A DNA stretch of 64,000 bases from Adenophora triphylla var. japonica (lineage: Eukaryota; Streptophyta; Magnoliopsida; Asterales; Campanulaceae): the NCBI GenBank assembly GCA_022495995.1, contig JAFEMH010005415.1:1-64000 (forward strand). Direction: 5' to 3'. Within the stretch, counting starts at the first letter, position 1. Each line of letters begins with the position of its first letter. The position numbers were made by a program, and so were the translations under genes. The notes under the pieces were generated by a model. The model had not been told where the DNA came from, searched no databases, and saw only the letters and a program-made list of their open reading frames with translations. Shown here piece by piece: positions 25,749 through 54,010 of this stretch.

Positions 25749-27949
25749 TGTAACGATCCTAACCCTAGGCACAATTTAAGTATAATATTATATGCTTTTA
25801 ATATTATTGTTAGTATTATGTGTTCATTTTTATATACTTGATTCCTTATATTAGGATAAAATGATAGGAAAGTAAAATAATGTCCTAAAGGAAAATATAG
25901 AAATAGAAAATGAATAAGGAGTAAGAGGAGGTTAAATTGGGTAAAATAAATAATGGGAAATAAAAGGGGGCTTTCATTTATATTGGTTGAAAGCCTTGGA
26001 TTAATAATTAGGGAGGGGAACAATATCCCTTAAAACCCTCCCCTCTTCTCTCCTAGGACAATGACCCATACCTCCCATACTTTTCTCCTCCCTCTTCCCA
26101 TACTTCCCCTATTCACCTCCCCCATCCATCTCATTTCACTCTTACCATTCTCCATGGAAAGAGCATTGTGAAATCCTCCACTTCTCAAACCCCTATCAAG
26201 TTCATTTCTTGTCCATTTTTAAATCCAAGTGTCCTTTTGTGAGTGGTACATCTAAAGGAGTTGATCAAGCCTAGAAAAGCTTCATTTCATCTTGTATTAG
26301 CTAAGGTGAGTTGTTATGATTTCCCTTTTTATAAATGTTCATAAACTCTTAAATGTTGTTCTTGTTGTATGGATGATTGTTTCATGCTTTGGGAACCTTA
26401 TAGGAGTTGAATAATTAGCAAATGAAGTAGAATGAAGTAAATGTTCATGGAAGATGATTTAGAGGAAATGAAATGGGTGGAAGATGTAGTGATAAATAAT
26501 CTAGGGTTACTTTATTTTGGGTTTACATGCTTTATGATGAAATTGGTATGCTAGGAAATGTTTTTGGTGTTCATGGAAATAGGCAAGGTTAAAAGGAAAA
26601 GAAAATAGGTAAAGAAGAGTTGGAAATCTGGGAATTGCTGGAAGGGCACTTGGGCGGTCGCCCAAGGGGGCATGAGCGGTCGCCCATGCTGCCAGAAACT
26701 AGGATTGCTTTAGAAAACCTCTTGGGCGGTCGCCCAAGGGGTGTTGTGCGGTCGCCCACCTTGGCAGTAACTTGGGTGCCATTTGAAAATCCACTTGGGC
26801 GGTCGCCCAAGTGGTATGGGCGGTCGCCCAAGACCCGTAAACTTAACTTTAAATCTGAACCAGAATTAGTTTAGCAATCTTGTTTGGTCACTTATAAATT
26901 GTGACTCCCATTTGGTAAATTGAGCTTGAACCTTCATAGAGGCCTTGTATTATTGTATAATGACCTTTTAGGATGGATTGATGATACTTCCTTGCCTTAC
27001 TTGAGTTCTTATACATTGTTTATATTATGAATAGTGTGTTGAATAAATGTTGCACTATGATATTGGTTGGGCATGAGTATATTTTACCATGTTGCTATAT
27101 TGTTATCCCTTTTTGTGGATTATGTTTCAAGTAACTATTATGTGCTTGATAATTTGTTAATCAGCTGATGTTGGGGGTATAACATAATACGATCAATTAT
27201 GGAAGTGTGACCTAATGTGATCGGATTATGTTATATCTGTGGCAGTCCCCTCACGTGGCCACAGGTCGGGGTATAGCATCTGTAGTGAGCCAAAAGCCTT
27301 ACAGAGTTGCTACTATCTTATTTGGTTCCCTGAAAAACGGGTCTTATAAGATGTGAGTATTGCTTAAGCAGCTCACTTAAGATTGGAGTATTATTATACC
27401 CAATGTTGTACGACTATTGTTCAGACGGGAAAAGGTAAACCAAGGTAATGGAAGGTGTTTACAGCTTTTCCAATGTGTTATGTGCAACTTGTTATGTGTT
27501 GCACATTTTATTTGGCATATTGCTGCATTCATAATAGCTTGCTGAGATTTATTCTCACCCCTCTCCCTTTAATGTTTTTAGATCCCGAGACAGGCGGACC
27601 GGCCAAGTAAGGACGGAAAGGAGTTTGGCAGTGAGCTTTTGGGTATTGTCGGGGTACGTTAGGTTGGCGTAGAAAGTATATTTTGTTAAAATTCCTCTAT
27701 GGAAGTTTGTAATTATAAACTTAATTTCTACGTTGGAACCACCATCTTTTGTAACAAAACAATTTAGTATTTTCAAAGTTAGTCCACTCTTCCTCCGGTG
27801 TGGAGAGTAGTGGAGTTGATTTGAAATGGTTATGTTAATCTAGTTATGTTTGAAAGTTATATCAAAGTTTTCAAAGTTTAGTAAATTTGGGTTAGTTTGA
27901 GGATGCTCCAACTCGGGACACGTGTAGATTTCGGGTCGGGGTCCTCACA
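25749..27949 (+). repeat. 5' LTR of the Ty3/gypsy element
   Basis: 2201 bp, TG...CA. It contains the three-unit GGGCGGTCGCCC module at 26652-26829. Small frames inside are not genes. Confidence 0.92.
26652..26870. repeat. Three-unit GC palindrome module in the gypsy 5' LTR
   Basis: Six near-palindromic 12-mers of the type GGGCGGTCGCCC start at 26652, 26674, 26724, 26746, 26797 and 26818. They form pairs 21-22 bp apart, the pairs repeat at 72-73 bp, and CAGNAACT follows each of the first two pairs (GTAAACTT in the worn third unit). The third unit extends to a 10-bp perfect stem (CCACTTGGGC/GCCCAAGTGG) around GGTC, so it could fold as an RNA hairpin. The same module is in the 3' LTR (47079-47256) and in an unrelated copia leader (56001-56180). 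Confidence 0.85.
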
Positions 27950-29253: not shown

Positions 29254-32142
29254 GTGTTGGAGGTCTCTACTCCTATGGGAGAGTGCCTTGCATCTTCTTT
29301 GATATACCATGGGTGTGATGTGATTATATGTGGGCATGTATTGCCAGTGGATTTGGTCGAGTTACCAATCCGTGATTTTGATGTGATCCTTGGGATGGAT
29401 TGGTTGAGTCAGTGTCATGCTTTGGTAGACTGTCGTAGAAAATGCGTCTCATTTGCTATGCCTGATGTGCCTACTTTTATATTTGATGCGGATAAATCTA
29501 TGTTCGGTTTACATGTTATTTCCGCCTTAAAAGCTAGAAAGATGCTATATAAGGGGTGTGCGGGTTACTTGGCTTATGTGGTAGATTCCAATAAGAAGTC
29601 CCCCGAGTTAGCTCATGTCTCGGTTGTGAATGAGTTTAGTGACGTGTTTTCTAGTGAGTACTCTATGCCTCCGAATCGTGAGGTAGAGTTTTGTATTGAC
29701 TTAGTGCCCGGTACCACCCCTATCTCTAAAGCACCCTATAGAATGGCTTCGGCCGAGTTAAAAGAGTGGAAGGTCCAATTGCAAGAATTGCTAGACCGGG
29801 GTTTTATTCGCCCTAGTGTGTCACCGTGGGGAGCACCGGTTCTATTTGTTAGGAAGAAGGATGGTACCTTACGATTATGTATAGATTATCGTTTGTTGAA
29901 CCAAGCCACCATAAAGAATAAGTATCCTCTTTCGCACATAGATGATTTATTCGACCAACTCCAAGGTTCCGTTATCTACTCAAAACTTGATTTGAGAAGC
30001 GGATACCATCAGTTGAAGATTAGGCCGGATGATATTGCCAAAACAGCTTTCCGAACTAGATATGGTCACTATGAGTTTGTTGTGATGCCTTTTAGGTTGA
30101 CTAATGCTCCAGCCGTGTTTATGGATATGATGAACCGTGTTTTCAAGCCTTATCTTGATAGCTTTGTGGTGGTATTCATTGATGATATCCTTGTTTATTC
30201 TAAGTCCCGGGAAGAGCATGAAAATCATTTGAGGATTGTCTTGTCAGTTCTCCGTGAGAAGCAGTTGTACGCCAAGTTCAGCAAGTGTGAGTTTTGGCTT
30301 GAGCAGGTTTCTTTCTTGGGGCATGTTGTGTCGAGTTCGGGGATTTCCGTTGATCCTTCGAAAATTGAAGCCGTGGTTAATTGGAAGCAACCTTCGACTG
30401 TGACTGAGGTTCGTAGTTTCCTTGGTTTGGCAGGGTATTACCGAAGGTTTATAGAGGGTTTTTCTCGGATTGCGACTCCATTGACAAGGTTGACTCGGAA
30501 AGATGTATCATTCACATGGGATTCCAAGTGTGAGGAAAGTTTTAATGAATTGAAGAAGAGGTTGACGACGGCTCCTGTTCTTACCCTTCCGGATGGTTGT
30601 GAGAATTTTGTGATCTATAGTGATGCCTCGAAGGCGGGTTTGGGATGTGTTCTAATGCAAAATGGGAAAGTTATTGCGTATGCCTCTAGGAAGTTATCAC
30701 CGGCGGAACAGAATTATCCTACTCATGATATGGAATTGGCGGCGATCGTGTTTGCGTTACATAAGTGGAAGCATTACCTTTATGGGGCGAAATTTGAGAT
30801 ATTCACCGATCATAAGAGTTTGAAGTACTTATTTACCCAAAAGGAGTTGAACAACCGACAAAGGAGATGGCTCGAGTTCTTGAAGGATTTTGATTGTATA
30901 ATTTCTTATCATCCGGGGAAGGCCAATGTAGTGGCGGATGCGATTAGCCGAAAGGCGTATGTGACAGCTTTGGGTTCCCGAGAATTGACGAGTGAGGTAA
31001 TTATTGCGAATGTTCGAGCCGTTCCTACATTGTATGGAGATTTGAAGGAAGCTCAACAAGGTGATCCGGAGTTGAAGAAAATTTTAGATCAAGTACAAGA
31101 TGGGAAAGTCGGGGAATTTGCGTTGAATAGAGATGGGATTTTAACTTTCCAAGGGAGAATTTGCGTTCCTTCATCACCGGAGATCAAGAGGCGTGTCTTA
31201 GAGGATGGCCATAAGTCCAAGTTTGCGATTCATCCGGATAGTACCAAAATGTATCAAGACTTGAAGCGTGGGTATTGGTGGAATGGTATGAAGAGGGAAA
31301 TTGCGAATTATGTCTCCAAGTGTTTAACTTGTCAACAAATCAAGGCAGAACATCAAAGACCGGCGGGATTACTTCAACCATTGGATATTCCGGAATGGAA
31401 ATGGGAAGGGATCTCGATGGATTTTGTTTCGGGTTTGCCTCTTACCGCGAAGAAGATGGATGCTATTTGGGTTATTGTGGATAGATTGACAAAGTCGGCT
31501 CATTTTCTTCCGGTATCAACCAAGTTTTCGTTAGAGAAGTTAGCTCAGTTATATATGAAGGAAATTGTGAGACTTCACGGGGTTCCGGTTAGTATTGTTT
31601 CCGACAGAGATCCGAGGTTTACTTCTAGATTTTGGAGAGCATTGCATAAAGCCTTGGGTTCTAAATTGTGTTTCAGTACGGCGTTTCATCCTCAAACCGA
31701 TGGTCAGTCCAAGAGAACTATTCAGATACTTGAGGATATGTTACGGGCTTGTGTGATGGATTTCCAATTGTCTTGGGAAGATCATTTACCTTTAGTGGAG
31801 TTTGCCTACAACAACAGTTATCAGTCTAGTATTGAGATGGCTCCGTATGAAGCGTTGTATGGTAGGAAGTGTCGATCTCCGATGTGTTGGGACGAGGTTG
31901 GTGAAGCGAGACTTTGGGGCCCGAATTTGGTTAGAGATTCAACGGAGAAGATCAAGGTGATTCGGGATAGATTGAAGACGGCTCAGAGTAGACAGAAAAG
32001 CTACGCCGACAATAGAAGACGGGATTTATCTTTTCAGGTTGGTGACTTTGTGTTCTTGAAGGTCTCTCTAAGGACGGGAATCAAAAGTTTGGTAATAAGG
32101 GTAAATTGGCTCCGAGATTCGTTGGACCGTTTGAGATTCTAG
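29254..32142 (+). pseudogene. Pol (RT, RNase H, integrase) of the gypsy element
   Basis: A 962-codon open stretch. Reverse transcriptase: [15 protein letters not shown], the catalytic [11 protein letters not shown]. RNase [47 protein letters not shown]. Integrase: HKSKFAIH and CLTCQ zinc site, DFVSGLPL and IVSDRDPRF. The third catalytic residue of the integrase triad, expected Glu in DGQSERTIQ, is Lys here, consistent with a G-to-A change. A 1-base loss near 32085 shifts the end of integrase into the frame of 32106-32474. Likely dead in cis, yet long uninterrupted frames imply youth. Confidence 0.92.
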
Positions 32143-32582: not shown

Positions 32583-34045
32583 TGTTGGGTATGCATGTTT
32601 TAACCCTCCTATTTTATATTAGATTTGATTGATACCATAACCTCCTGTCTATTTTAAGGACTTTAGGATCCTATGTAATGAAGCTTAGACTTCAATTTTT
32701 TAGCAAAGTCCATTCTATAGAATAGGTTAAAATTAGGCTTGAAGACTGGCTCAAGAATCAATGGACCTAAGGATTGCAGTTCTGAGGTTTCAAAACCGCC
32801 TATCAAGGAACCGCTTGGCAGAACCGCTTGTAGCCTAACTGCCTTGTAATCCCCTATTTTGAAACCGCTTGTATCCCAAAGTGCAAATCGCACTCTTGGA
32901 AATCCTTCTTCTGGTGGAACCGCTTTCATGTCAAACCGCCTCTCTCCAGAACCGCTCCAATGATTGGCTACTTGAATTGAACCTCTTTTGACCGTTGGAA
33001 TCCACGTCAGCAATATCAAAAGTCAACTACCATATCTTGTCACGTGACTACTTTTCAGACAAGATCTGCAAGGATCTTGAAAAGGTGACAGATGTCCTAA
33101 CCACCTTGATTGCGGTGAGGTCCGATCGGCTTTACTGCATCAGCGGTTCCAAAGGACAAAAGTAGTTGTTGTGGACCAATGGGATTGCATCAAGGACTGT
33201 CCTTACAACAGCTGTATCCAACGGCTAGTTTCTTGATGCTTGGGTATAAATACCCCTAATCTTCACCATTTGAAGATTGCTTGAAAAAACTTGAGAAATT
33301 GTTGTGTTCATGAGAAGTTGAAGCTCTGCCCAGAAATTCATAAGTCCTTTGAATCTTCATCTTCATACTTCAAGAAATATTTCCCAGCCCAGAAATCAAG
33401 CCTTAACACATTCAAGAATCATTGAGCTCTACATCTCTCAGATTTAAAGAGCCTTGATCTTGAACACACACACCTCACTTGTTTAAACACATAGTTTATT
33501 CATTTAAGATACACTGGTTATAGTCTAGGATTTGTTCTTCATAGAAAAGATTTTATTGTACTTTGTAATCTCTCAAATAATCAATATAAAATCTCTCTTA
33601 GAAATCCAAGACTAACCATCTTGGTAGTGGACGTAGATCGTTTATCGATTGAACCACTCCAAATAGCTTGTTCATACTTTACTGCATTTATATTTTCTGT
33701 GCTTGCTAATTATCTATCTCTGTCTCTGTTTGATCTTTATATAGTTATCCTTATTGTGAAATTGTGTTTGGAGTTAACATTGTCAAAACCTCATTTTTTG
33801 CAAACTGCACCTTCTGACAACCGCACTATCAAACCGCTTTGCAAAACCGCCTCTCCCAAAACCGCTTTATAACTTATATATTCCGCTGTGCATTTTACAA
33901 CTCTACTTGCAGTTTCTTACACACTGCAAGAGGTTTTGTAAGCTTAGAGGTTTAGTTTTTAAAGAGGGCGAAAAATTTGAAACAGCTATTCACCCCCCCC
34001 CCTCTAGCTGTATTTTCACCCTTGTTGCCACCTTTGGGACCAACA
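32583..34045 (+). repeat. 5' LTR of the SIRE-like element
   Basis: 1463 bp. It holds about 11 sense ACCGC motifs, clustered at 32795-32955 and 33819-33866. A TATA-like GGTATAAATACC lies at 33242-33253, a likely promoter for the genomic RNA. Confidence 0.92.
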
Positions 34046-34047
34046 AG

Positions 34048-34059
34048 TGGTATCAAAGC
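34048..34059 (+). other. Primer-binding site of the SIRE-like element
   Basis: TGGTATCAAAGC two bases after the 5' LTR, complementary to initiator tRNA-Met. Confidence 0.9.
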
Positions 34060-34116
34060 TAACACATTTTTAAAACCACTGTTTTTCAAGCTTAACAGCT
34101 TGTGTGCCGATTCGAT

Positions 34117-36440
34117 ATGGCAAATACAAAGACAATGACAACTGTTAACTATTCACACATTCCAATTTTGGACGAAGACCACTTCGACATCTGGAAGTGC
34201 CGAATGCTTATTCATTTGGAAACCATCGATGAAATGCTAGTGGAATGCGCGATCAATGGCCCGTTAGTTCCAATAAAGGCCAACACAGATGCAACCACTA
34301 GTGCAACAATTCCAGAGGTCAAAAAGCCAAAAGAAGAGTGGTCGGATGAAGAGAAGAGATTAGTTGCCTTGGACAGCAAGGCTAGGCACATCATTTCTGG
34401 AACCCTCCCCGTATCAACTCTACAGAAAGTGATGTACCTCAAAACCGCAAAGCAGATGTGGGATGCCATTGAGAGCTACCTCGAATGTGATGACGAATGC
34501 AAGGAAAGCAAATTATATACTGTTGAAAGATCATACAACAACAGCAACAGAAAATCCAACGAAACCTTGCGTCAAACCTACGACCGATATGTTGAGGTAG
34601 TTAATGCTTGTAGATCTCTTGGCAAAACTTTAACCGATAAGGAAATCAATATGACTTTCCTATCTGCTTTAGGTTCTAAATGGGTAAATAAGGCTACCTC
34701 TTTAGAAGACTCCAAAGTTTTGGGTACTTGGTCGTTAAGTAACTTGTACGCCAATCTTAGAGTCTATGAATTAAAATTAAATCATATTGAAGAGATTGAA
34801 GGGAAAACCAAATCGCTATCCATGTCTGTCGTGGAACATGAGGAGAAACCATCTACATCCAATCAAACTGCAGATCCTTCCATATCAACCTCATCACTCA
34901 TCGAGATGGATGATGATGATTTTGCCATGTTTGTGAAAAGATTCCAAAAATTTAGAAAATTCTCAAAACCTTTCACAAAATCATTTTCAAAAGGCAAACC
35001 TCCTGCAACGTTTTCTAAGGCTGGAGATACAAAGAAAAAGAGTGATCTAGTTTGCTACAATTGTAGAAAACCTGGTCACTTTGCATCTGAGTGTCCACAA
35101 CCTAAATATGAATACATGAAAAAGAAAACCTCTCCTGCAAAATTTTCTCGTCGCAAGGGAATGGTTCGAGGAGGAAGAGAATTCCAAGGAATTGGCCACT
35201 TGGATTGAAACAGATTCGATGATGGAAGTGATGATGAAACCGAAGAGGTTAATCTACTGCATTGCGTACGCTTCCGATGAGTCAGATTCTGAGTCAATCG
35301 AGTCGCAAGATATGGAAGAAAAAGAGGTTTCTACAAAACTTCCAAATTTTAAATTGGATGATGATATCAAACTTACTCCTAGCATTAAGATAGGAAATTG
35401 CTCGTATTCACGTCCCATTTTTTCTCCTACAAATGCTCCACCTTCAAAAACAATTCCAAAGAAGAAAATTTTAAAAAAGGTGGTGGAAGAGGTTTCTCCC
35501 ATGGAACATGAAAGGATGTTCAAGGAAGCTGAAATGGTGATCCATCAATTCTCTAATCTTAAGAAAGCCTTAAGCTTAGCTCATGATGAACTTAATCTGT
35601 ACAAGTTTCAAATCTTAAGGACCAAATCAGAAGTATGACTCCTCTTGCTGATCAGAACCGCATCCTTGAAACTAAGGTTGCTGCACTTCAACTCCGGAAT
35701 GATGACTTGGTAACCCAAATCAACGATCTCCAAAAGATTATTGATTCGTGGCTCAAGTCTCAATCCACCAAGGATAAAATCATGGACTCCCAAGTTCCTC
35801 CTGGAATTAATGAAGGCCTAGGTTTTGGATCTGAGGAAGAGGAGAAGTGTGCATCCTCGAGTGAAAAGGATGAGGAAATTTTGGAACTAACTAAAGAAAT
35901 TCCTAAGGGGAAGCATGCTAAAGGAAAGGGTAAAGGACGACAAATTAATTATGTCTACCCAAAAGGAAAGCAATATGGAAAGAATTCTGTGTTGAAACCT
36001 AAGGATTACGTGGAAGCGGTGAAGAGGAAATGGCTTATGGAATTGGTTGCATACCTGCTCCAACCGCTCCTGGTGGAAAAGGTGGTGCTGCCAACTCCAG
36101 GTCTGACCGCGCATCTTCTTCGACCGCTCCTCCTGCCTTCAAAAGCAGGAATAGCGTTCCCAGGAAATACATGGTCAAATCAAAGCCTGTTCCATTTATC
36201 TCAGTCGGACTCTTAGCTGGAACCGCTCCTCCCAAACCGCTTCCTTGTCCCAAACTGCATGCAACTCCTAAGAAGAGTAAGGAGTTAGTAAAACCTCATG
36301 AAGCTTGTAGCTATTATAAATGTTACGTGTGTGATGGTTTAGGTCACAAGGCTGCAGAATGCCTTTTGCGGTTCACATCCAATGCCGGGAAGAATAAACC
36401 TCCTTACATCAGCGAGGTGTGGGTCGTAAAGGGTTGCTAA
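34117..36440 (+). pseudogene. Gag of the SIRE-like element
   Basis: ATG at 34117 (MANTKTMTTVNYSHIPIL). The UBN2-type Gag fold follows: DEDHFDIWKCRMLIHLETID, QMWDAIESYLECDDECKES, ETLRQTYDRYVEVVNACRSL. A zinc knuckle CYNCRKPGHFASEC lies near 35055-35096, a second CYVCDGLGHKAAEC near 36320-36361. The long region between is hydrophilic with probable coiled coil. The frame is broken near 35200, 35636 and 36020. An unusually long Gag with a far-downstream second knuckle is typical of the Maximus group. Confidence 0.85.
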
Positions 36441-36478
36441 CTTCGAGGATCAAGGAATAAAGGGGGACCTCGTTCTTA

Positions 36479-39400
36479 ATGTTTACATTTCAGGTCCTCT
36501 GCTTCATGGCTGGTCACTCCAAGGAAAATGAATGGTATCTTGACGGTGGGTTTTGCTCAAGACATATATTTGGAGATAGATCATTACTTGAAGATGTCGT
36601 TGAAGCAAGTGGTCCGTCTGTAACCTTTGGTGACAACAACAAAGGCAAAACCATTGGATATGGCATTATAAGGAGAGGAAACCTAACCATTGAGAAGGTT
36701 TCTCTTGTTGAAGGACTCAAGCACAACCTCCTTTCAATTTCTCAATTTTGCGACAAAGGAATGCTTTGCAACTTCACGTCATCAAATTGCTTTATCAAAG
36801 ATAGCATTTCCGGCGTCACCCTACTCACCGGGATTCGTAAGAGTAATATTTACATTATTGATCTAAATTCTGTATGTAGTATTACTAATCTCTGTTTTGT
36901 AGCTAAGAATGTGAGCGAAAATAGTTGGCTATGGCATAAAAGGTTGAGCCACTTGAACTTCAAGTATCTTGCAAAGATTGGTAGGGAAAACCTCGTTCGT
37001 GGTTTTACCTAAAGTGGCTGACCACCATCCGAGAGAAATGCGGTGCATGCCGGCTTGGTAAGCGATCCGCGTCGTCTTTCACTGGCAAGACCGCTCCATC
37101 AACTTCAAGATGCTTACAAGCTGCTTCACATAGATTTGTTTGGACCCGTAACCACTTTGCCGGCATTGGAGGAAATAGATATACCTTAGTGGTGGTGGAT
37201 GATTACTCAAGATATACGTGGGTTGAGATGATGATTTCCAAAGATGGATTGCTATGAGATTCTCACCGCACTTTTTAGACGGCTCCAAACTCAAAAAGAA
37301 GATGACATCGTTAGTGTTCGATCGAGATAATGGAACATAATTTAAGAACAACGGTGTTGCTCGGTATTGTGATGATCACCACGGGATTGATCACAATTTT
37401 TCAACCGGTGTTCCACAACAAAATGGGGTTGTGGAAAGAAAGAATAGGGCGTTGATTGAAATTTGGAAAAACAATGATATCTGAAGCGAAGCTACCTCAG
37501 TATTTTTGGGCTGAAGCAATCAATACCGCATGCTTCACTCAGAATCGCTCCCTCATCAACAAAACCTATAACAAGACTCCCTATGAGCTTTGGCGAGGAA
37601 GAACCCCCAACATTGCATTCTTCAAGATCTTTGGCTGCAAATGTTTTGTCCTCTTCAACGGAAGAGAAAATAGAGGTAAATTCGGAGCTAAAGCCGACGA
37701 AGGTATTTTTGTTGGGTATGCTAAACACTCAAAAGCTTTTAGTGTTTTCAATAAAACTAGTTTAAAAATAGTTGAGTCTGTCCATGTTACTTTTGATGAG
37801 CATTCTCTCCTTGAGCCACATTTGGCTCCAAATGTTGCTGATGATTTTGTTGAGCATAATGAACCAGGTGAATCATCTCAAACGGCACTGAACCTCAACC
37901 GCAAAATCCGGCATCCTCAAGCGAAATTCCCTCAAACCGCACCTTTGAAACCGCACTGAAGTTCCTACTCCGGATGCAACTCCAAGGAAGAAGAAGTTGA
38001 GAATTCCCTATCCGGCTTATAGAACCTCTTCGTCAACTTACCTTCCATGACTTATTTGAAGGATCTAACGATATTCCAATTGAAGATCTTGACAAACCTC
38101 GATCAACCGGACTTACCCCAGGAGGTTCGTGAAGTCGGCGGTCACCCCCTCACAAATGTGATTGGTGATCTGTTTTCCGGTGTTCAAACAAGGAGATCAA
38201 ATTATGACGAGCATACCACTCTTTTATCTGAAGTTGAACCCAAGAAGATTGATGAAGCAGTCCAAGATTTCAGTTGGGTCGTTGCTATGCAAGAGGAACT
38301 CGGCCCGATTTGAAAGATGCAAGGTCTGGACTTTGGTGCCTAGACCTCGGGATCAGGAGTGATAGGAACTAAGTGGGTATTTAGGAATAAGATGGATGAG
38401 AATGGAAGCATCACCAGGAATAAAGCAAGGTTGGTTGCACAAGGATATAGGCAAGAAGAAGGAATTGATTATGATGAAACCTTTGCTCCAGTTCCAAGAT
38501 TGGAAGCTATCAGAATCTTCTTAGCCTACGCCTCTTTCAAGCGTTCCAAGTTATATCAAATGGACTTCAAGAGTGCATTCCTCAACGGAGAAGCTAAGAG
38601 ACCGTGTATGTTGCCCAACCGCTTTGGATTTGAAGACTCCAAATTTCCCAATCATGTCTACAAACTCCGAAAGCTTTGTATGGACTTAAGCGAAGCTCGA
38701 GGGCATGGTATGAGACTCTTTCTAAATTTTTACTAGAAAAAGGATTTAAACGCGGTAAAATTGATACAACTCTTTTTATTGCCAAATATAATGAGCATAC
38801 TTTACTTGTTTAAATTTATGTCGATGATATTATTTTTGGTTCTACTAATGAGTTGCTTTGTAAGCGTTTCGAGAAGCTAATGAAAAGCAAGTTTGAGATG
38901 AGCATGATGGGAGAATTAACTTTCTTCCTCGGGCTTCAAATCAAGCAATGCGAAGAAGGTATTTTCCTCAGCCAAGCCAAGTACACCAAGGAGTTGATAA
39001 AGAAGTTTGGATTAGAAAATGCTAAAGCATATGATACTCCTATGGCCACCGGCAATAAGCTAGATAAAGATCTCAAAGGTAAGAAAGTTGATCGAGACTT
39101 TATATCGAGGTATGATCGGCTCATTACTTTACTTAGCGCTAGTAGGCCCGATATTATGTTTGAGTGTACGTGTATGTGCTCGTTACCAAGGCGACCCTAG
39201 AGAAGCACATCTTATTGCGATCAAGCGTATAATCCGCTATTTATACGGAACCACTAACCTTGGACTTTGGTATTCCAAATATTCGAACTTCGATCTTGTA
39301 GGTTATTCGGATGCAGATTATGCGGCTTGTACTATTGACGGAAAAAGCACTAGTGGTACTTGTCATTTCCTCGGGAATAGACTAGTTGCTTGGGCCGGCA

Positions 39401-39764
39401 AGAAGCAAGCTTCGGTTTCGGTGTCAACCACGAGAGGCCGAGTATATTCTTCTTGGTAGTTGTTCTTTGTCAAATCCTTTGGATGAAGCGGCGGTTGGTA
39501 GACTATGGAATCCATGAAGGGAATTGCCCCATCATGTGTGACAACACTTCAACAATTTCAGTCTCCAATAACCCTGTCATGCATTCCAAGACCAAGCACA
39601 TAGATATCAAGTATCATTTCCTCAAAGATCATGTGGAGAAGAGGAATATCCATTTAGAGTACGTGGGGACAGACAACCAGATTGCTGATATCCTTACAAA
39701 GGCTCTTGACTCCAAGAGATTTTCTTTTCTCAGAGGAGAAATGGGTATGCTTGAACTTAAATAA
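36479..39764 (+). pseudogene. Pol (protease, integrase, RT, RNase H) of the SIRE-like element
   Basis: Protease: EWYLDGGFCSRHIFGD, where family members read D-S-G-C-S-R-H, so the active site is altered. GAG-pre-integrase: SWLWHKRLSHLNFKYLAKIG. Integrase remnants: VVVDDYSRYTWVEMM and VERKNR text near 37180-37450. RT: TKWVFRNKMDENGSITRNKA, RLVAQGYRQEEGIDYDETFA, MDFKSAFLNGE, then the VDDIIFGST box near 38820. RNase H: GYSDADYAACTIDGKSTSGT and TKHIDIKYHFLKDHVE. At least six frameshifts or stops break it, so it is dead in cis. Confidence 0.88.
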
Positions 39765-40362
39765 ATTCCATACTTTTTATTTGCTAACTTGTTTGTTGAG
39801 TCTAGGTTGAAATTCCTTTTGGAATCAAACCGCTTCTGTTGAACCGCCTGTGCCAAAACCGCAAGATTATCCAACCGCCTGCATGCAAACCGCAAGTTCC
39901 AAACCGCTCATGCAGTCTGACCGCTTGGATCAAAACCGCGTTTCAACAAGAAGTAAACTCTGTCTATTTTTATTGCTTATCTTTATTTAAAAAAAAAAAC
40001 TGTTCAAATTCCTTTATTTATTTTTTAGTCCTTATTTTTTGACATAAGGGTATTTTTGCAAATGTTTTCCCTCATTTATTTCAAAATGAAGAGCATTTAA
40101 TGCTAAGGGGACATGAGCATTAAAAACCCTCATGTCAGCCGTCATAGAGAGAGGTGCAGGAGGTGAAAGGGTGTAACAATTGGTTTAATTCAATCATTCC
40201 TTCTGAACCAACTGCCTGCCCCCCTTCACCCTATATAAACCTATGTTGGTGAAAACAAACCTTTTCTTCTGCCAACTCTGCAACTGTACCTCCTACCAAC
40301 TCACTTTCTCTCTCTAAAACTCTTCACAAAACCTCCATTTTCAAAACTTTTTCTGTAAATCA
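39765..40362 (+). promoter_or_regulatory. Internal promoter and leader of the third gene
   Basis: Between pol and the third gene lie eight ACCGC motifs packed into about 125 bp (39825-39950). They are followed by a TATA box CTATATAAACC (40231-40241) and a CT-rich, A-rich leader with CTTTCTCTCTCTAAAACTC leading to an ATG in good context (CAATGGC, 40363). This is the order of a normal plant promoter and 5' leader. Promoter function is inferred from motifs only. Confidence 0.6.
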
Positions 40363-43300
40363 ATGGCCTCTACTTCAAAAAGACAAAGAGCCTCTACCAC
40401 TGCTAGGGCAAAGAAACCAGTTCTGGAAATGGTAAACAATTTCTAACCTTAAAGCTTTAATTTTCTGAAATCTGCCATTGATGAACTTGAACAAAACTGT
40501 TCGTATCCCTCATGTTCTTCATTATGGTTGATTTTGATCTTGTTTGTTAACTATTTTGCTTAAGAATTGTTGGGTTTTGCTCGGATTTATACATGGATTA
40601 CATATATGTTGTTTATTTCATGATCCATCCATGTTTTGAGCTTTGATTTTGTGATTTTCAGTTCAAAACCTTCGAAAACCCACTTTGCATTTTTTTTGTG
40701 ATTCTTGATGATTCTGGGTAAAGGATGAGTTTTTAATGTTATATTATTGTTCCCCTTCCCAATGTGATCATTTTGATATGTTATTTGCTTATTTTGGTTA
40801 AGTTTCATGTATCCCTGTTCTTGGTGTTCTTGAATGTTCTTGGTGTTCTTCACAAAACCCATGAACTGTTCTTGAAAAATCATATGTTTTGGTTGCCTTG
40901 ATTCTAAGAAAGTGTTTTCCAACACTTAGAATATTTTCAACTTTTTCAGAAATTTTGGATTTTATTTTGGTTTGAAACCGCTTGTATGCAACCGCTTAGG
41001 AATTTCTGTTTCAAACCGCTCCTCACCTATTCAACCTAAACCGCATGTTCTAAAACCGCATTCTCAAATCTTTAGAAACCGCATGCTGTTTATTTCCTTT
41101 CCAATGTTTTTGAGATTTTACTAAGTATATAGGCTGGAAACCAAGAAATTCCTCTCTAATCACTGCTTGCAGTGTGGGATAAGTTTGGATTACAATGCCA
41201 CGTACCTAAGTAATTTTGTTCTCAAAGTCCTCATTATTTGTTTAAGTATTCATGGTTTCACTTGGGGTTTGAAATTTTCAAACCGCACCATTGCTCAACC
41301 GCTTGGTGCTCAAACCGCATGTGAACTATGAATACACAAATGGATCTAACACTTGAAATTTTATTTTATAGGATCCAACTACTTTCCTACCTGGGTGGGA
41401 AGTGAATGAGGAAGAGCTCAAAACAGATGCTCTTGGAAGGGAATTGCTGAGGAAGCTAAGAGTTTCAGGCATCCTACCGCTTTTCACCAAGAAGCAGAAT
41501 TTCATAGTGCCATCTTTCGTGGATCAGTTCTTTGCAACCGCTAAGAAGGATTCAAGAGTTATTGAACAAGGCCAAAAAGTTTCCTGCCTGACCGCTGTAG
41601 TTGAAGGCATGAAGCTCTCCATAGACTACATTGACATCAGAAGGCTTTTCAGATTTACTGTTGGTGGAGCTCCCTTAGAAGTTGATCAAGTCATTCAAGA
41701 CAATGCTGCTTTCCAAACCGCCAAAGTAGATACCTTGTCTAAGAAGTACAAGAAGATCCCCAGAAAGAATTTTGGTGAACTGATGAACTTTATAGGTCAT
41801 CTAGTGGGGAGATCCATTTGTGGAAAGACTGGAAACCACAACAACTTTACATCCCAACAATGGATGTACAGTGCTGCTATCTTTATGGAAATCAAGCTGC
41901 ATTGGCCAAGAATCCTTTACTTTGAGATTAAAGACAACATTGAGACCTATCAGTCCAAGGTCAAAGGTGAAGATCAGAGGTGGAGACCTTTCTGCAGGAT
42001 CTTAACCGCTCTGTTGATGGACTATGAGCACTTAGATGATATGGTCACCAAAAATCCAGAACTTATGGTGGGTGCTCGGATGATTGCCTAGGTACTTGCT
42101 TGCCACACTTTCAGATATGCAAATGGAGATGCATTGTACAAATCTTTGTATGATGCAGATACCTATCCCTTGAAGGAACCCTATGAGCTCAGAGATCCTA
42201 CAACCGCTCCTCAAACTAAAGCTACCAAGCGGTCCAGGAAGCCCCAAGCAAGAGTTGAACCGCTTCCCAAGAGGACCAAGACCGCTCCAGCATCCAAACC
42301 GCCTACTGCTGATGATGGAGCTGGTACAAGCAAAAGGAAGAAATCATCCAAGGAACCTGAACCTGAAACCATGCATTTGGTGGATGAAAGTGATGAAGAA
42401 GAGGAAGACCCAAGTATTCCTAACTTGGTGGCAAGAGCCAAGAAGGCTAGGGATGAGATGGCTGGATTGACTGTGGAGGAACAGATGAAGGTTCTCCAAG
42501 ATAGGATTGCTAGATTGGCCAAGGAGCAGGCTGAAAAATATCAGGCCAAGGGCAAAACTACTGAAGCTGGAACCGCCTCACCCCATGAACCGCCTCCAGA
42601 AACCCAACCGCCCCCAACTCCTCAGACCTCTCCTGTCCAATCTCCAAACCAATCCCCAGTCCAATCCCCTGCCAACTCTCAATCCAGATCCCCTTCCAAA
42701 GCCAAATCCATAACCCCTTCCCCCAACAAAACCGCACCACTTCAGGGGGAGAAACCTAAGAGGAAGAAGATGGCGGCCAGAAAGAAAACCTTCAAGAAAT
42801 CCAAGCCTGTCCAACCCTCACCCACTCCTTCACCTACCAGAAATTCCCCTCCTCAATCACCTCCTCAAAATTCTCCTTCACCTTCCCCCAGAAAATCACT
42901 ATCACCCTTATCTTCCCAATCAACATATAACTCACCCCAACATTCCCATTCCATAAATTCCCAACACTCCAACCAAACACCTACCAAATCCCAAGCTTAT
43001 CAACAATGGCAGTCCAAGCCCTCTGCTGGACATGCCACATCCAAATCTGTTAGGGATGACCCAACCCCTGTCAATTCCCCTCACCTAAACCGCTCCCATT
43101 CCAACACCCCTAACCGCTCCAGATCCATTTCCCCTCAAAAGTCCCTAACTCCCCAAGGGTCCCCTCATACTCAAAAGACCCCTCCTCCAAATATACCTCC
43201 CCAAACCCAAACCGCGCCTGAAACCAACCAAACCCAACCGCCTCCCATATTTCCAACCGCCTCACCATCAACCGCCCCTCCTTCTGAGTACTCCCAAATT

Positions 43301-44287
43301 CTCCAAACCCTAAACCTGATTCAAGGCCAACTGATCATAAATCAAGGCCATGTCATCTCCTTAACCGCCTCAAATGAATCCCTCCTTGCCTCCAACCGCG
43401 CCTTACAAGCCAAGGTGGATTCTCACTCCCTTGAGTTGGCAACCCTTAAAGCCTCTTTGCTTGATGCCATTAAGGGGGAGAGATCTACAGCTATTCCATC
43501 CTCCTCCTCAACCGCTCCTCCTGATCAAACCGCTTCCATGATCAAAACCGCTTCTGAAGCCTTTCAGAAATCCCTTGAAGCTGGTTTGGTCAAAGCCTTA
43601 GAAGAAAAGGCATCTATTGAGGAGATGAAGAAATCTTTGGATGTTCTTGGAGAGAAACTCTGTACCTCCCTTGATAAAGATTTGGGTAATCTGAGCACCA
43701 AATTCCTTGACTTTCTTCAAACCAGACCGCAATTATCTCAAGTTGTCCAAACCGCCTTGGATAATTTGCGTGAAGAAGTCTTGGAACAAATTGACCTTTT
43801 CAAGGTGGATTCAAAGGTAAATCTGGATACTGTGTCAGATACAGTGAAGGCCAAGCTGAACGAGATCCAAGATGAGTTCAATGACCGCTTGGACAACCTC
43901 AGGGAAGGATTCAACTCCAGACTTGGCTCAACAGTCAATGATCTCAAAACCTCCCTGAAGGTATCTGTGGATTTTGAACCAATGGAACAAGCCATTCAAG
44001 CTCAGACTGCTGCTGTTCAGGAGGAAGTGCACACCATCTTCAATTCCCTTTACTCTTCCCTCCATGTTCAGCTGGATACTATCAGAGACAATCTTGTGGA
44101 AAACACCAAAGCGGTTGGTGCCACAAATTCTACTTCTGCCCACTCTGTTAATGCTTTGAAGAAGCTAGAGTCAACTCTCACCAGAGAAGAGGAAGTAAGA
44201 AGACTGAGGAAAGCGTTTGCACCAGACCAATCAAGAGCTGGGCCAAGTGGAGCTGATCATGAAGTTAACAAGCCGCCTCAGCAGTAA
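40363..44287 (+). pseudogene. Third gene of the SIRE-like element: spliced, proline-rich, coiled coil
   Basis: Exon 1 (40363-40431, MASTSKRQRASTTARAKKPV) joins exon 2 (41372-44287) across a 940-bp intron with GTAAAC and TTTTATAG borders, in frame, giving about 994 codons. A single TAG (42089-42091) fits a CAG change. Residues about 24-270 (DPTTFLPGWEVNEEELKTDA, SCLTAVVEGMKLSIDYIDIR, FTSQQWMYSAAIFMEIKLHW) resemble the 'putative plant transposon protein' domain seen in post-pol ORFs. Then come a basic patch (KRSRKPQARVEPLPKRTK), an acidic run, a long Pro/Ser/Gln linker and a coiled-coil C-terminus. No signal peptide or membrane segment was seen, so 'envelope-like' is not supported by sequence. 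A nuclear or RNA/DNA-binding role is possible but inferred. Confidence 0.75.
40432..41371 (+). other. Intron of the third gene
   Basis: Donor ATG|GTAAAC and acceptor TTTTATAG|GATCC with a T-rich 3' region. Splicing keeps phase. The intron contains nine ACCGC motifs in its second half (40976-41325), all on the sense strand. Confidence 0.7.
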
Positions 44288-44779
44288 ACCGCTTTTTCCT
44301 TGTAATTTCTTTTGGTAAGTTTGGACCGCACTTTCTTTGTATTTTCCTTTGTCCAACTTACTTAATTTTTGTTTTTTTGTAATCTTGTAATTTCCTTTCA
44401 TTCCTGTACTTGTAATCATCTTAGGAATTAATGGAAATTGCATCATGGTTCCAAAACTTTGTTCATATCAAACTGCTTGTTTGTAGAACAATGAAACCGC
44501 CTATGGTCTTAAACCTCTTTTGAATTGATGTTTAAACATTCAGTTTAAACCGCACTTTGAACTTAAACTCATATTTTTAAGTGCACTGAATGCATCTCTA
44601 TACTTTTCAAATTGTAAATTTCTCAATCTTTCAAAAGTATAGAAACCTATAGCTTAAGCTAGTGTGTGCATTAACTTGGGACATGACTTACCATGTTTAT
44701 TCTTATGGACATGTTTTTAACAAGTATAATGTTTGCTTTTGCTGTAGTAGGTAATGACATCAATCAAATAGGGGGAGAT

Positions 44780-46244
44780 TGTTGGGTATGCATGTTTTAA
44801 CCCTCCTATTTTGTATTAGATTTGATTGATACCATAACCTCCTGTCTATTTTAAGGACTTTAGGACCCTATGTAATGAAGCTTAGACTTCAATTTTTTAG
44901 CAAAGTCCATTCTATAGAATAGGTTAAAATTAGGCTTGAAGACTGGCTCAAGAATCAATGGACCTAAGGATTGCAGTTCTGAGGTTTCAAAACCGCCTAT
45001 CAAGGAACCGCTTGGCAGAACCGCTTGTAGCCTAACTGCCTTGTAATCCCCTATTTTGAAATCGCTTGTATCCCAAAGTGCAAATCGCACTCTTGGAAAT
45101 CCTTCTTCTGGTGGAACCGCTTTCATGTCAAACCGCCTCTCTCCAGAACCGCTCCAATGATTGGCTACTTGAATTGAACCTCTTTTGACCGTTGGAATCC
45201 ACGTCAGCAATATCAAAAGTCAACTACCATATCTTGTCACGTGACTACTTTTCAGACAAGATCTGCAAGGATCTTGAAAAGGTGACAGATGTCCTAACCA
45301 CCTTGATTGCAGCTGAGGTCTGATCAGCTTTACCTGCATCAACAGTTCCAAAGGACAAAAGTAGTTGCTGTGGACCAATGGGATTGCATCAAGGACTGTC
45401 CTTACAACAGCTGTATCCAACGGCTAGTTTCTTGATGCTTGGGTATAAATACCCCTAATCTTCACCATTTGAAGATTGCTTGAAAAAACTTGAGAAATTG
45501 CTGTGTTCATGAGAAGTTGAAGCTCTGCCCAGAAATTCATAAGTCCTTTGAATCTTCATCTTCATACTTCAAGAAATATTCCCCAGCCCAGAAATCAAGC
45601 CTTAACACATTCAAGAATTATTGAGCTCTACATCTCTCAGATTTAAAGAGCCTTGATCTTGAACACACACACCTCACTTGTTTAAACACATAGTTTATTC
45701 ATTTGAGATACACTGGTTATAGTCTAGGATTTGTTCTTCATAGAAAAGATTTTATTGTACTTTGTAATCTCTCAAATACTCAATATAAAATCTCTCTTAG
45801 AAATCCAAGACTAACCATCTTGGTAGTGGACGTAGATCGTTTATCGATTGAACCACTCCAAATAGCTTGTTCATACTTTACTGCATTTATATTTTCTGTG
45901 CTTGCTAATTATTTATCTCTGTCTCTGTTTGATCTTTATATAGTTATCCTTATTGTGAAATTGTGTTTGGAGTTAACATTGTCAAAACCTCATTTTTTGC
46001 AAACTGCACCTTCTGACAACCGCACTATCAAACCGCTTTGCAAAACCGCCTCTCCCAAAACCGTTTTATAACTTATATATTCCGCTGTGCATTTTACAAC
46101 TCTACTTGCAGTTTCTTACACACTGCAAGAGGTTTTGTAAGCTTAGAGGTTTAGTTTTTAAAGAGGGCGAAAAGTTTGAAACAACTATTCACCCCCCCCC
46201 CTCTAGCTGTATTTTCACCCTTGTTGCCACCTTTGGGACCAACA
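44780..46244 (+). repeat. 3' LTR of the SIRE-like element
   Basis: 1465 bp, matching 32583-34045. Two of the ACCGC motifs are lost by C-to-T change (near 45061 and 46062). The TATA-like GGTATAAATACC recurs near 45442. Confidence 0.92.
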
Positions 46245-48370
46245 ATGTGTTCATTTTTATATACTTGATTCTTTATATTAGGATAAAATGATAGGACAGT
46301 AAAATAATGTCCTAAAGGAAAATATAGAAATAGAAAATGAATAAGGAGTAAGAGGAGGTTAAATTGGGTAAAATAAATAATGGGAAATAAAAGGGGGCTT
46401 TCATTTATATTGGTTGAAAGCCTTGGATTAATAATTAGGGAGGGGAACAATATCCCTTAAAACCCTCCCCTCTTCTCTCCTAGGACAATGACCCATACCT
46501 CCCATACTTTTCTCCTCCCTCTTCCCATACTTCCCCTATTCACCTCCCTCATCCATCTCATTTCACTCTTACCATTCTCCATGGAAAGAGCATTGTGAAA
46601 TCCTCCACTTCTCAAACCCCTACCAAGTTCATTTCTTGTCCATTTTTAAATCCAAGTGTCCTTTTGTGAGTGGTACATCTAAAGGAGTTGATCAAGCCTA
46701 GAAAAGCTTCATTTCATCTTGTATTAGCTAAGGTGAGTTGTTATGATTTCCCTTCTTATAAATGTTCATAAACTCTTAAATGTTGTTCTTGTTGTATGGA
46801 TGGTTGTTTCATGCTTTGGGAACCTTATAGGAGTTGAATAATTAGCAAATGAAGTAGAATGAAGTAAATGTTCATGGAAGATGATTTAGAGGAAATGAAA
46901 TGGGTGGAAGATGTAGTGATAAATAATCTAGGGTTACTTTATTTTGGGTTTACATGCTTTATGATGAAATTGGTAAGCTAGGAAATGTTTTTGGTGTTCA
47001 TGGAAATAGGCAAGGTTAAAAGGAAAAGAAAATAGGTAAAGAAGAGTTGGAAATCTGGGAATTGCTGGAAGGGCACTTGGGCGGTCGCCCAAGGGGGCAT
47101 GAGCGGCCGCCCATGCTGCCAGAAACTAGGATTGCTTTAGAAAACCTCTTGGGCGGTCGCCCAAGGGGTGTTGTGCGGTCGCCCACCTTGGCAGTAACTT
47201 GGGTGCCATTTGAAAATCCACTTGGGCGGTCGCCCAAGTGGTATGGGCGGTCGCCCAAGACCCCAGAAACTTAACTTTAAATCTGAACCAGAATTAGTTT
47301 AGCAATCTTGTTTGGTCACTTATAAATTGTGACTCCCATTTGGTAAATTGAGCTTGAACCTTCATAGAGACCTTGTATTATTGTATAATGACCTTGTAGG
47401 ATGAATTGATGATACTTCCTTGCCTTACTTGAGTTCTTATACATTGTTTATATTATGAATAGTGTGTTGAATAAATGTTGCACTATGATATTGGTTGGGC
47501 ATGAGTATATTTTACCATGTTGCTATATTGTTATCCCTTTTTGTGGATTATGTTTCAAGTAACTATTATGTGCTTGATAATTTGTTAATCAACTGATGTT
47601 GGGGGTATAACATAATACGATCAATTATGGAAGTGTGACCTAATGTGATCGGATTATGTTATATTCAGGATCGTCCCTCCCCGTGGCCAGGTCGGGGTAT
47701 AGCATCTCGTAGTGAGCCAAAAGCTTTACAGAGTTGCTACTATCTTATTTGGTTCCCGATAAATGGGTCTTATAAGATGTGAGTATTGCTTAAACTCACT
47801 TAAGATTGGAGTATTATTATACCCAATGTTGTACGACTATTGTTCAGACGGGAAAAGGTAAACCAAGGTAATGGAAGGTGTTTACAGCTTTTCCAATGTG
47901 TTATGTGCAACTTGTTATGTGTTGCATTTTATTTGGCATATTGCTGCATTCATAATAGCTTGCTGAGATTTATTCTCACCCCTCTCCCTTTAATGTTTTT
48001 AGATCCCGAGACAGGCGGACCAGCCAAGTAAGGACGAAAAGGAGTTTGGCAGTGAGCTTTTGGGTATTGTCGGGGTACGTTAGGTTGGCGTAGAAAGTAT
48101 ATTTTGTTAAAATTCCTCTATGAAAGTTTGTAATTATAAACTTAATTTCTACGTTGGAACCACCATCTTTTGTAACAAAACAATTTAGTATTTTCAAAGT
48201 TAGTCCACTCTTCCTCCGGTGTGGAGAGTAGTGGAGTTGATTTGAAATGGTTATGTTAATCTAGTTATGTTTGAAAGTTATATCAAAGTTTTCAAAGTTT
48301 AGTAAATTTGGGTTAGTTTGAGGATGCTCCAACTCGGGACACGTGTAGGTTCCGGGTCGGGGTCCTCACA
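46245..48370 (+). repeat. 3' LTR of the gypsy element, remainder
   Basis: It resumes with the second copy of atgtg, then TTCATTTTTATATACTTG, collinear with 25826 onward, and ends GTCCTCACA. The palindrome module is retained at 47079-47256 (one site mutated to GAGCGGCCGCCC). Confidence 0.92.
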
Positions 48371-52785: not shown

Positions 52786-54010
52786 TAAGTGGGGTAGATG
52801 GGTAGAACATAGGTGTGGGGTAGGTGGTGAGGACGGGGTGAGGGTTAAGATAGGGTAGAGTAGTGGTGGAAGTGGGGTGGGGTGGGTGGGTAGGGTAGGG
52901 TGAAGATGGGAGGTTGGGTAGGTTGGTGGGTGATTAAGGGTAGGGCTGAGGTTAGGTGTACGGTAGGTGAGGGGTAGGGGAATAGGTAGGGGTGAGGTGG
53001 GGTAGGGGTTAGGGGTGGGTGAGTGAATGGGAATGGGGGTATAAGGGTATGTAGGATGGGATGGGGTAGCGTGTGTGGGAGGATGAGGGTGGAGGTAGGG
53101 GTATAGGCGGGGGTGAGGTGGGGTAGGGGTGGGTGAGTGAATGGGAATGGAATATAAGGGTATGTAGGATGGGATGGGGTAGCGTGTGTGGTATAAGGGG
53201 GTGGGTGGGGTAAGAGGGTAAAATAGGTAAACGGTATAGGGAGGGCGGGTAGGGGTGGAGGGTGGGGTTGAGTGGGTGAGGTATTAGGGGTAGGTAGGAT
53301 GGAGGTGGGGTAGGGGTGAGTGGTGTGTTGGGTGGGGGTAGGTGGGCTAGGGGCGGGTGGAGTAAATCGGGTATGGCGGTGGGTAGGTGGGTGCGAGGGA
53401 GTAGGGTGTGGGGTAGGGGTAGTGGCGGTGTGTGGGCAGGTGGGACGGGGTAAAAAATTGGCCCGCAAGGGTGTGTGTGGGGGTGTGGGGTAGTGGGGGG
53501 ATTAGTGTGGGCGGGGCGGTAGGGGAGTTTTAAAAGATAAATTTAATGAGTAATTTTTTTTGTTGGGGGTGAGGGGTTTGGGGCGGTGGGTTGAGTTTTA
53601 AAAGAAAATTTTGATACGAGTAAAAAGGAACTTGTGTGGTGGGGGTGGGGTTGTGTTAGCGGTTGGGCGGGGGGTGGGCAGGGCGGTGGGAAAGTTTTAA
53701 AAGATAATTTTTATGAGTAATTATTTTTTTGACGGGGGTAGGGGTGGGGTGAGGGGTCTGGGGCGGTGGGGTGAGTTTGTAAAAGATAATTTTGATACGA
53801 GTGAAAAAAGATTTGGCCTTGTGGGGGTGATAAGGGGGCGTTGAAGGTGTTTTTAAAAAGTAATTTTAATGAGTAAATTTTCTTTTTAAAGAGGGGGAGG
53901 GGGAGGGGGAGGGGTAGGGGTGGAGGGTGGGGAGCAAGGGAGGGATGGGGGTTAGGGGTTTCAGTATTGGTTAAGGGTAAAGACGGGGGGTTGGGAAAGG
54001 TGGGTCGGTA
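52786..54010. repeat. G-rich, strand-asymmetric low-complexity tract
   Basis: About 1.2 kb of G/T/A on the plus strand (GGGGTAGG, GGTGGGGTAGG, GGGGTGGGTG) with C almost absent until 53850. Closely spaced runs of three to six G could form G-quadruplexes. Internal repeats include GGGTATGTAGGATGGGATGG (near 53046 and 53159) and GAGTTTTAAAAGATAA-type spacers at about 53525, 53694 and 53770. The 207-codon minus frame (Pro/Thr/His only) is open because the C-rich strand lacks stop codons. Confidence 0.85.

Follow-up and report, generated by a model that had tools for sequence, protein, structure and literature searches.

Why should a short CG-containing word be repeated some 80 times, nearly always in the same orientation, within a single plant retrotransposon? 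The question is raised by a 64,000-nucleotide stretch of DNA from Adenophora triphylla var. japonica (contig JAFEMH010005415.1, here called the window), in which a copia-type element with marks of a Sirevirus occupies positions 32583–46244. The word is ACCGC, and the element contains gag, pol and, behind pol, a third gene of the kind called envelope-like. The sites form an oriented set that is independent of reading frame, has a distinctive CpG pattern and is placed around the ends of the element and the third gene. Our tentative preference is that the word serves as a recognition site in DNA, with an element-encoded binder that would act against CG silencing of both promoters and the element body, although our confidence in this is somewhat less than even; a host factor, sites acting in RNA, and a relic are weighed against it below.

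Abundance and orientation of the word

The element contains 82 ACCGC words on the plus strand and 10 on the minus strand, close to the 80 and 10 estimated by eye in the original prediction and far above the totals from dinucleotide shuffles performed region by region, 500 each (3.4 plus, maximum 10, and 2.5 minus, maximum 8). As the two long terminal repeats (LTRs) are copies of one sequence, a count with only one of them gives 73 plus sites, against 10 minus (binomial p 6e-13). No other 6-mer in the element is as over-represented as AACCGC, with 70 occurrences versus 1.4 expected (z 57.6) and four of its reverse complement. The top 6-mers of seven element-free scan windows of about 13.7 kb (of 12 scanned, mutually overlapping) have z scores from 4.6 to 21.1; the highest of these belongs to CGCCCA, which is present 12 times on each strand and only in two 500-bp bins.

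As predicted, plus-strand sites are found in both LTRs (11 and 9), in an array behind pol (8, at 39829–39939), in the intron (9) and in the third gene (27), and are nearly missing from the flanking gypsy-type coding region (29254–32139, one plus, none minus). The spacer, exon 1 and intron together have 17 plus sites and no minus sites, and the sequence after the third gene has four and none. The earlier claim that the word runs through the whole element stands for the LTRs, spacer, intron and third gene, where excess and bias are strong (68 plus and 4 minus outside gag and pol), and was overstated for gag and pol, where they are weak or modest (14 plus and 6 minus). Eight of these 14 plus sites are located within two short stretches outside the Pfam spans, 36063–36240 and 37898–37954. 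Avoidance of conserved domains is not shown by the gag and pol sites, as the six mapped Pfam spans (1398 of 5651 bp) contain two of the 14, where 3.5 are expected from length.

Selection on nucleotides in the third gene

The plus-strand sites of the third gene are distributed over all three frames (16, 4 and 7). Sixteen of its 19 Thr-Ala pairs read ACC-GC, while all four CGC arginine codons and seven of the eight CCG proline codons are inside the word. Synonymous codons were shuffled 2000 times per piece, a strict procedure, as the ACC, CCG and CGC codons brought by the word are kept. The long part of exon 2 has 22 sites versus 10.2 after shuffling (largest value 16), and the first part has 5 versus 2.3 (p 0.0035). 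Six pieces of gag and pol were treated in the same way, leaving out 35206–36440 and 37010–37455, where the other 8 of the 14 sites are located: the gag piece has one plus site versus 0.9 (p 0.68), pol 37456–37956 has four versus 1.9 (p 0.057), the reverse transcriptase (RT) piece has one versus 0.1 (p 0.09), and three further pol pieces have none. The flanking gypsy-type pol has one versus 2.0. The presence of the word in three frames and in non-coding sequence, together with the codon-shuffle excess in exon 2, bears out the original proposal that selection acts on nucleotides; a protein-level preference for Thr-Ala is rejected as the cause in view of the three frames and the non-coding sites. 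For TpA, the observed/expected ratios of the third gene (0.48), gag (0.57) and pol (0.67) are not decisive as a mark of RNA-level dinucleotide avoidance.

CpG outside the word

The abundance of a CG-containing word had been called odd in view of CpG erosion, and the pattern is stronger than was claimed, since CpG outside the word is nearly gone from the third gene and spacer. With the word counted on either strand, and expected values calculated for all CpG from composition, the exon 2 region (41372–44287) has 38 CpG, 29 in ACCGC and 9 outside, versus 154 expected; the spacer and intron (39765–41371) have 23, 17 inside and 6 outside, versus 50 expected. The corresponding values are 25 (13 and 12) versus 54 for the 5' LTR, 57 (9 and 48) versus 98 for gag, and 106 (11 and 95) versus 143 for pol. 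Where codons meet in the long part of exon 2, a C is found before G in 14 of 195 cases, with 12 of the 14 belonging to the word, versus 182 of 535 before another base; in the six gag and pol pieces the values are 42 of 299 versus 213 of 794. From these junctions it is clear that the third gene has lost far more CpG than gag and pol have, synonymous positions included. CAG and CTG together are not low in the third gene (1.21), although CpG decay itself produces CTG and CAG. Decay of methylated CpG and selection against CpG cannot be told apart, and either way the CpGs of the word have been retained.

Shape and spacing of the sites

The base before the core is A in 70 of the 82 sites and G in nine. 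The fourth base before the core is C or T in 72, and the second base after it in 74; these tendencies are common to coding and non-coding sites. Among the 18 one-letter neighbours of AACCGC, AACCTC is the most frequent (20 plus versus 5.5 expected, and 10 minus), followed by AACCAC (10) and GACCGC (9), and judged from these neighbours the core is sharp. Successive sites are at least 13 nucleotides apart, with 33 of the 81 steps measuring 13–18 nucleotides. No clear 10.5-bp helical phasing is present, the strongest value being near 15, the usual spacing. Tandem duplication is not supported as the source of the sites, since the spacers are unlike: flank identity is 0.259 for 27 close neighbours and 0.267 for random pairs of sites.

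Relation to the Sirevirus repeated motif

The ends of the element appear to match those described for Sireviruses by Bousios et al. 2010 (PMC2829016). There, a polypurine tract (PPT) octamer starts 10 bp before the 3' LTR and is followed by AT/TG, while the 5' LTR ends in CA followed by ATTGG, or by AGTGG in six elements. In our element the AGGGGGAG octamer has this same distance of exactly 10 bp, with AT/TG following, and the 5' LTR junction reads CA/AGTGG. Its primer-binding site, TATCAAAGC, differs from that of Sireviruses, TATCAGAGC, in one of nine letters. A general rather than strict mark is that the linker carries several PPTs, for the most part behind the third gene (PMC2829016); these extra copies are absent here, two of the three AGGGGGAG octamers of the element lying within the third gene (42744 and 43473) and the third being the terminal one at 44770. 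For the C-rich integrase signal, a mean distance of 21 bp to the end of the LTR is given (PMC2829016), and a run of 10 C is present at 33993–34002, about 43 bp from that end.

The original prediction missed that a repeated motif (RM) had already been described for Sireviruses. As set out in the same text (PMC2829016), it consists of palindromic CGG-CCG boxes, many of them in the LTR from 200–400 bp inwards and mostly in its first half, with more upstream of the third gene; in two elements the extra copies occur only at the beginning of that gene. The RM of Inga, AGCGGTASTACCGCT, includes TACCGCT. Like the RM so described, ACCGC has a CCG-containing core and is multicopy in the LTR, where the first site is 212 bp in and seven of the 11 plus sites of the 5' LTR are at 32795–32955, the other four being near its 3' end. 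It is likewise found upstream of the third gene, with eight sites before the predicted TATA box and nine in the intron, and none in exon 1. Unlike the palindromic RM, it is a one-way half-site, and the intron and exon 2 are full of it as well. The palindrome itself, searched as CGG-N(0-8)-CCG, occurs only four times in the element, once in the 5' LTR. With ACCGC in the positions of the RM and the palindrome absent, the set reads as a variant of the RM. Searches of an open-licence library brought up no published description of a one-way word dispersed through a Sirevirus. Scans of viral contigs revealed no relatives of the RT piece or of the first exon-2 piece; in a pattern scan, at least 120 stretches have three spaced AACCGC words, and among the matches listed none hit the eight protein pieces of the window (tblastn, 1e-3).

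DNA or RNA, element or host

ACCGC, usually as (A/G)ACCGC, would in our preferred reading be a one-orientation Sirevirus DNA recognition site, which would occupy the places of the palindromic boxes, keep one half of a box and have spread through the third gene. Its arrays, which are found some 295 bp ahead of each predicted promoter (LTR and third gene), within the intron and over the length of the third gene, would be bound by a sequence-specific nuclear protein, for which the element's own third protein is the likeliest candidate. Dense occupancy would prevent methylation of the CpGs in the sites and hold the promoters open, in the manner of VANC proteins on VANDAL transposons. Anti-silencing had been named in the original prediction as the alternative to a role in RNA, and it is the alternative that we prefer. 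Speaking for it are the excess and orientation of the sites, their spread over three frames with more copies in the third gene than codon shuffling gives, the sharp core, the unlike spacers, the retention of CpG in the word, the placement of arrays before the predicted TATA boxes, the resemblance to the RM in position and in the Inga sequence, the VANC21 and sunflower findings described next, and the character of the third protein.

According to Hosaka et al. 2017 (PMC5735166), the VANC21 DNA motifs of VANDAL21 are present in one orientation and at high density, mostly in non-coding tandem repeats; the system is also covered by Sasaki et al. 2023 (PMC10398659). VANDAL21, as described there, shares with our element a short motif in many one-orientation copies (82:10 here), its presence in introns and non-coding sequence, and an extra protein encoded by the element. 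The spacers of ACCGC are dissimilar, unlike the VANC21 tandem repeats, and our element is a retrotransposon whereas VANDAL elements are DNA transposons. In sunflower, SIRE elements belong to the same retrotransposon lineage as ours, and CG methylation is strongly reduced between their LTRs while CHG methylation is kept high (PMC12844716); section 2.2 of that paper mentions no ACCGC-like word. Such a CG drop with CHG retained is what a CG-protecting system would give, although low CpG content could also distort the profiles.

Several points weigh against this preferred reading. The last array site starts 294 bp before the predicted LTR TATA box and 297 bp before that of the third gene, a match that is suggestive only, since it uses two of the eight TATAWAW matches of the element and is perhaps due to chance. 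The heavy CpG loss outside the word means that the region may long have been methylated, which would be unexpected under effective anti-silencing unless protection is local. Gag and pol contain few sites with a weak bias (14/6). The VANC21 motifs are mostly non-coding as described, whereas 27 ACCGC sites are in exon 2, and a Pfam comparison of the two exon-2 pieces, with E values up to 10, gave neither DUF1985 nor DUF287 (VANC).

A host transcription factor, perhaps stress-induced, could bind the ACCGC arrays, which would then act as enhancers for the promoters of the LTR and the third gene, with no partner encoded by the element. We consider this possible, though unlikely. The position of arrays ahead of each predicted TATA box agrees with it, and the comparison of Sirevirus RMs with a cis-element database reported by Bousios et al. 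2010 gave mainly stress-factor sites (PMC2829016). The 27 sites in exon 2 and the four after it exceed the apparent need of an enhancer. Moreover, one-way orientation is unusual among plain enhancer sites. Alternatively, Gag or the third protein might bind the plus-strand word in RNA, for packaging, export or translation, which we regard as rather improbable. The strong plus-strand bias outside gag and pol (68:4), the zinc knuckle in Gag, and the irregular spacing of 13–18 nucleotides without clear 10.5-bp phasing, as suits a flexible RNA, argue for it. The strand bias had been taken to favour RNA over DNA, a step that is not supported, since the described VANC21 sites show that one-way arrays can be DNA sites (PMC5735166) and the word is not especially open in RNA: in local folding the median openness is 0.152 for ACCGC, 0.189 for other NCCNC pentamers and 0.099 for all pentamers, so that no accessibility preference of the word is seen against other NCCNC. 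Furthermore, the mRNA of the third gene would also carry the sites, and genomic RNA would not be singled out. Finally, the set might be a relic, spread by local duplication or a Thr-Ala preference, with CpGs that have not yet decayed in a young copy. Some arrays are dense, 16 of the 27 third-gene sites read Thr-Ala, and the few differences between the LTRs indicate that the copy is young. We think this highly unlikely in the face of the three frames, the non-coding arrays and the dissimilar spacers; besides, hardly any other CpG is left in this DNA, so the lineage has had the time or the selection to lose them.

Structure of the element and its surroundings

The element has copia-type gag and pol matches and is flanked on both sides by ATGTG (Table 1). 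Alignment of its LTRs reveals 18 substitutions and two one-base gaps; seven of these 20 differences are in one patch (33114–33145 versus 45311–45344), the CpGs of which are kept in the 5' LTR and lost in the 3' LTR. The copy looks defective, since pol is split between a number of frames and a TAG interrupts the reading frame of the third gene. That the third gene of Sireviruses has an internal promoter is an earlier proposal (cited in PMC2829016).

Table 1. Coordinates of the features of the element (window positions; site counts are plus/minus ACCGC)
Feature	Position	Strand	Details	Basis
5' LTR	32583–34045	+	1463 bp; 11/2	direct repeat, LTR alignment and flanks
LTR array	32795–32955	+	7 plus; begins 212 bp into the LTR	site positions
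Predicted LTR TATA box	33245–33251	+	TATAAAT	
5' LTR feature near 3' end	33820–33865	+		ACCGC positions
gag region	34117–36440	+	more than one frame; 7/2, 5 plus at 36063–36240	copia gag and zinc-knuckle matches
pol region	36441–39764	+	several frames in this copy; 7/4, 3 plus at 37898–37954	
Post-pol array	39829–39939	+	8 plus	
Predicted third-gene TATA box	40232–40239	+	within CTATATAAAC at 40231–40240	
Predicted third-gene exon 1	40363–40431	+	23 residues, many basic; ATG at 40363; GT donor next, frame fits exon 2	
Predicted intron	40432–41371	+	GT...AG, phase 0; 9 plus at 40977–41318	
Third-gene exon 2	41372–44287	+	in-frame TAG at 42089–42091; 27/2, three frames	
Terminal PPT	44770–44777	+	AGGGGGAG, then AT, then the TG of the LTR	
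3' LTR	44780–46244	+	1465 bp; 9/0	direct repeat, LTR alignment

In the third protein no stretch of 19 residues is strongly hydrophobic (the highest mean is 0.91), and basic clusters are present, features that would suit a nuclear rather than a membrane protein. Its part encoded by 42092–44284 has a basic middle rich in Pro, Ser and Thr, and the exon-2 pieces show no clear membrane span, an odd feature in an "envelope" protein. The carboxy-terminal part resembles an apolipoprotein coiled-coil profile below the cut-off (31.3 versus 90 bits). An AlphaFold2 model of the first exon-2 piece, calculated without an alignment, has a predicted local distance difference test (pLDDT) score of 36.8.

Both flanks of the element look like parts of a single interrupted gypsy-type element. 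Similar repeats containing the palindromic word GGGCGGTCGCCC are located on either side of the insertion, at 26654–26824 and 47076–47251, probably in the LTRs of this gypsy-type element, and account for most of the minus-strand ACCGC close to the Sirevirus. Further away, a G-rich degenerate repeat on the plus strand (53300–53850) contains seven minus-strand ACCGC words, apparently a product of its composition.

Implications

In its most specific form, which we put forward as a doubtful but possible case, the "envelope-like" protein of a Sirevirus would bind one-way ACCGC arrays at the two promoters and along the third gene and keep them free of CG methylation, while almost all other CpG there has been purged, by a system of an origin independent of VANC. 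The roles of the Sirevirus boxes and of the envelope-like gene are left open by Bousios et al. 2010 (PMC2829016), and such a role becomes testable through a strong word that is linked with the third gene and the two predicted promoters. If the proposal is true, the Sirevirus "envelope" would gain a nuclear role, and sequence-specific anti-silencing would extend from DNA transposons to a retrotransposon.

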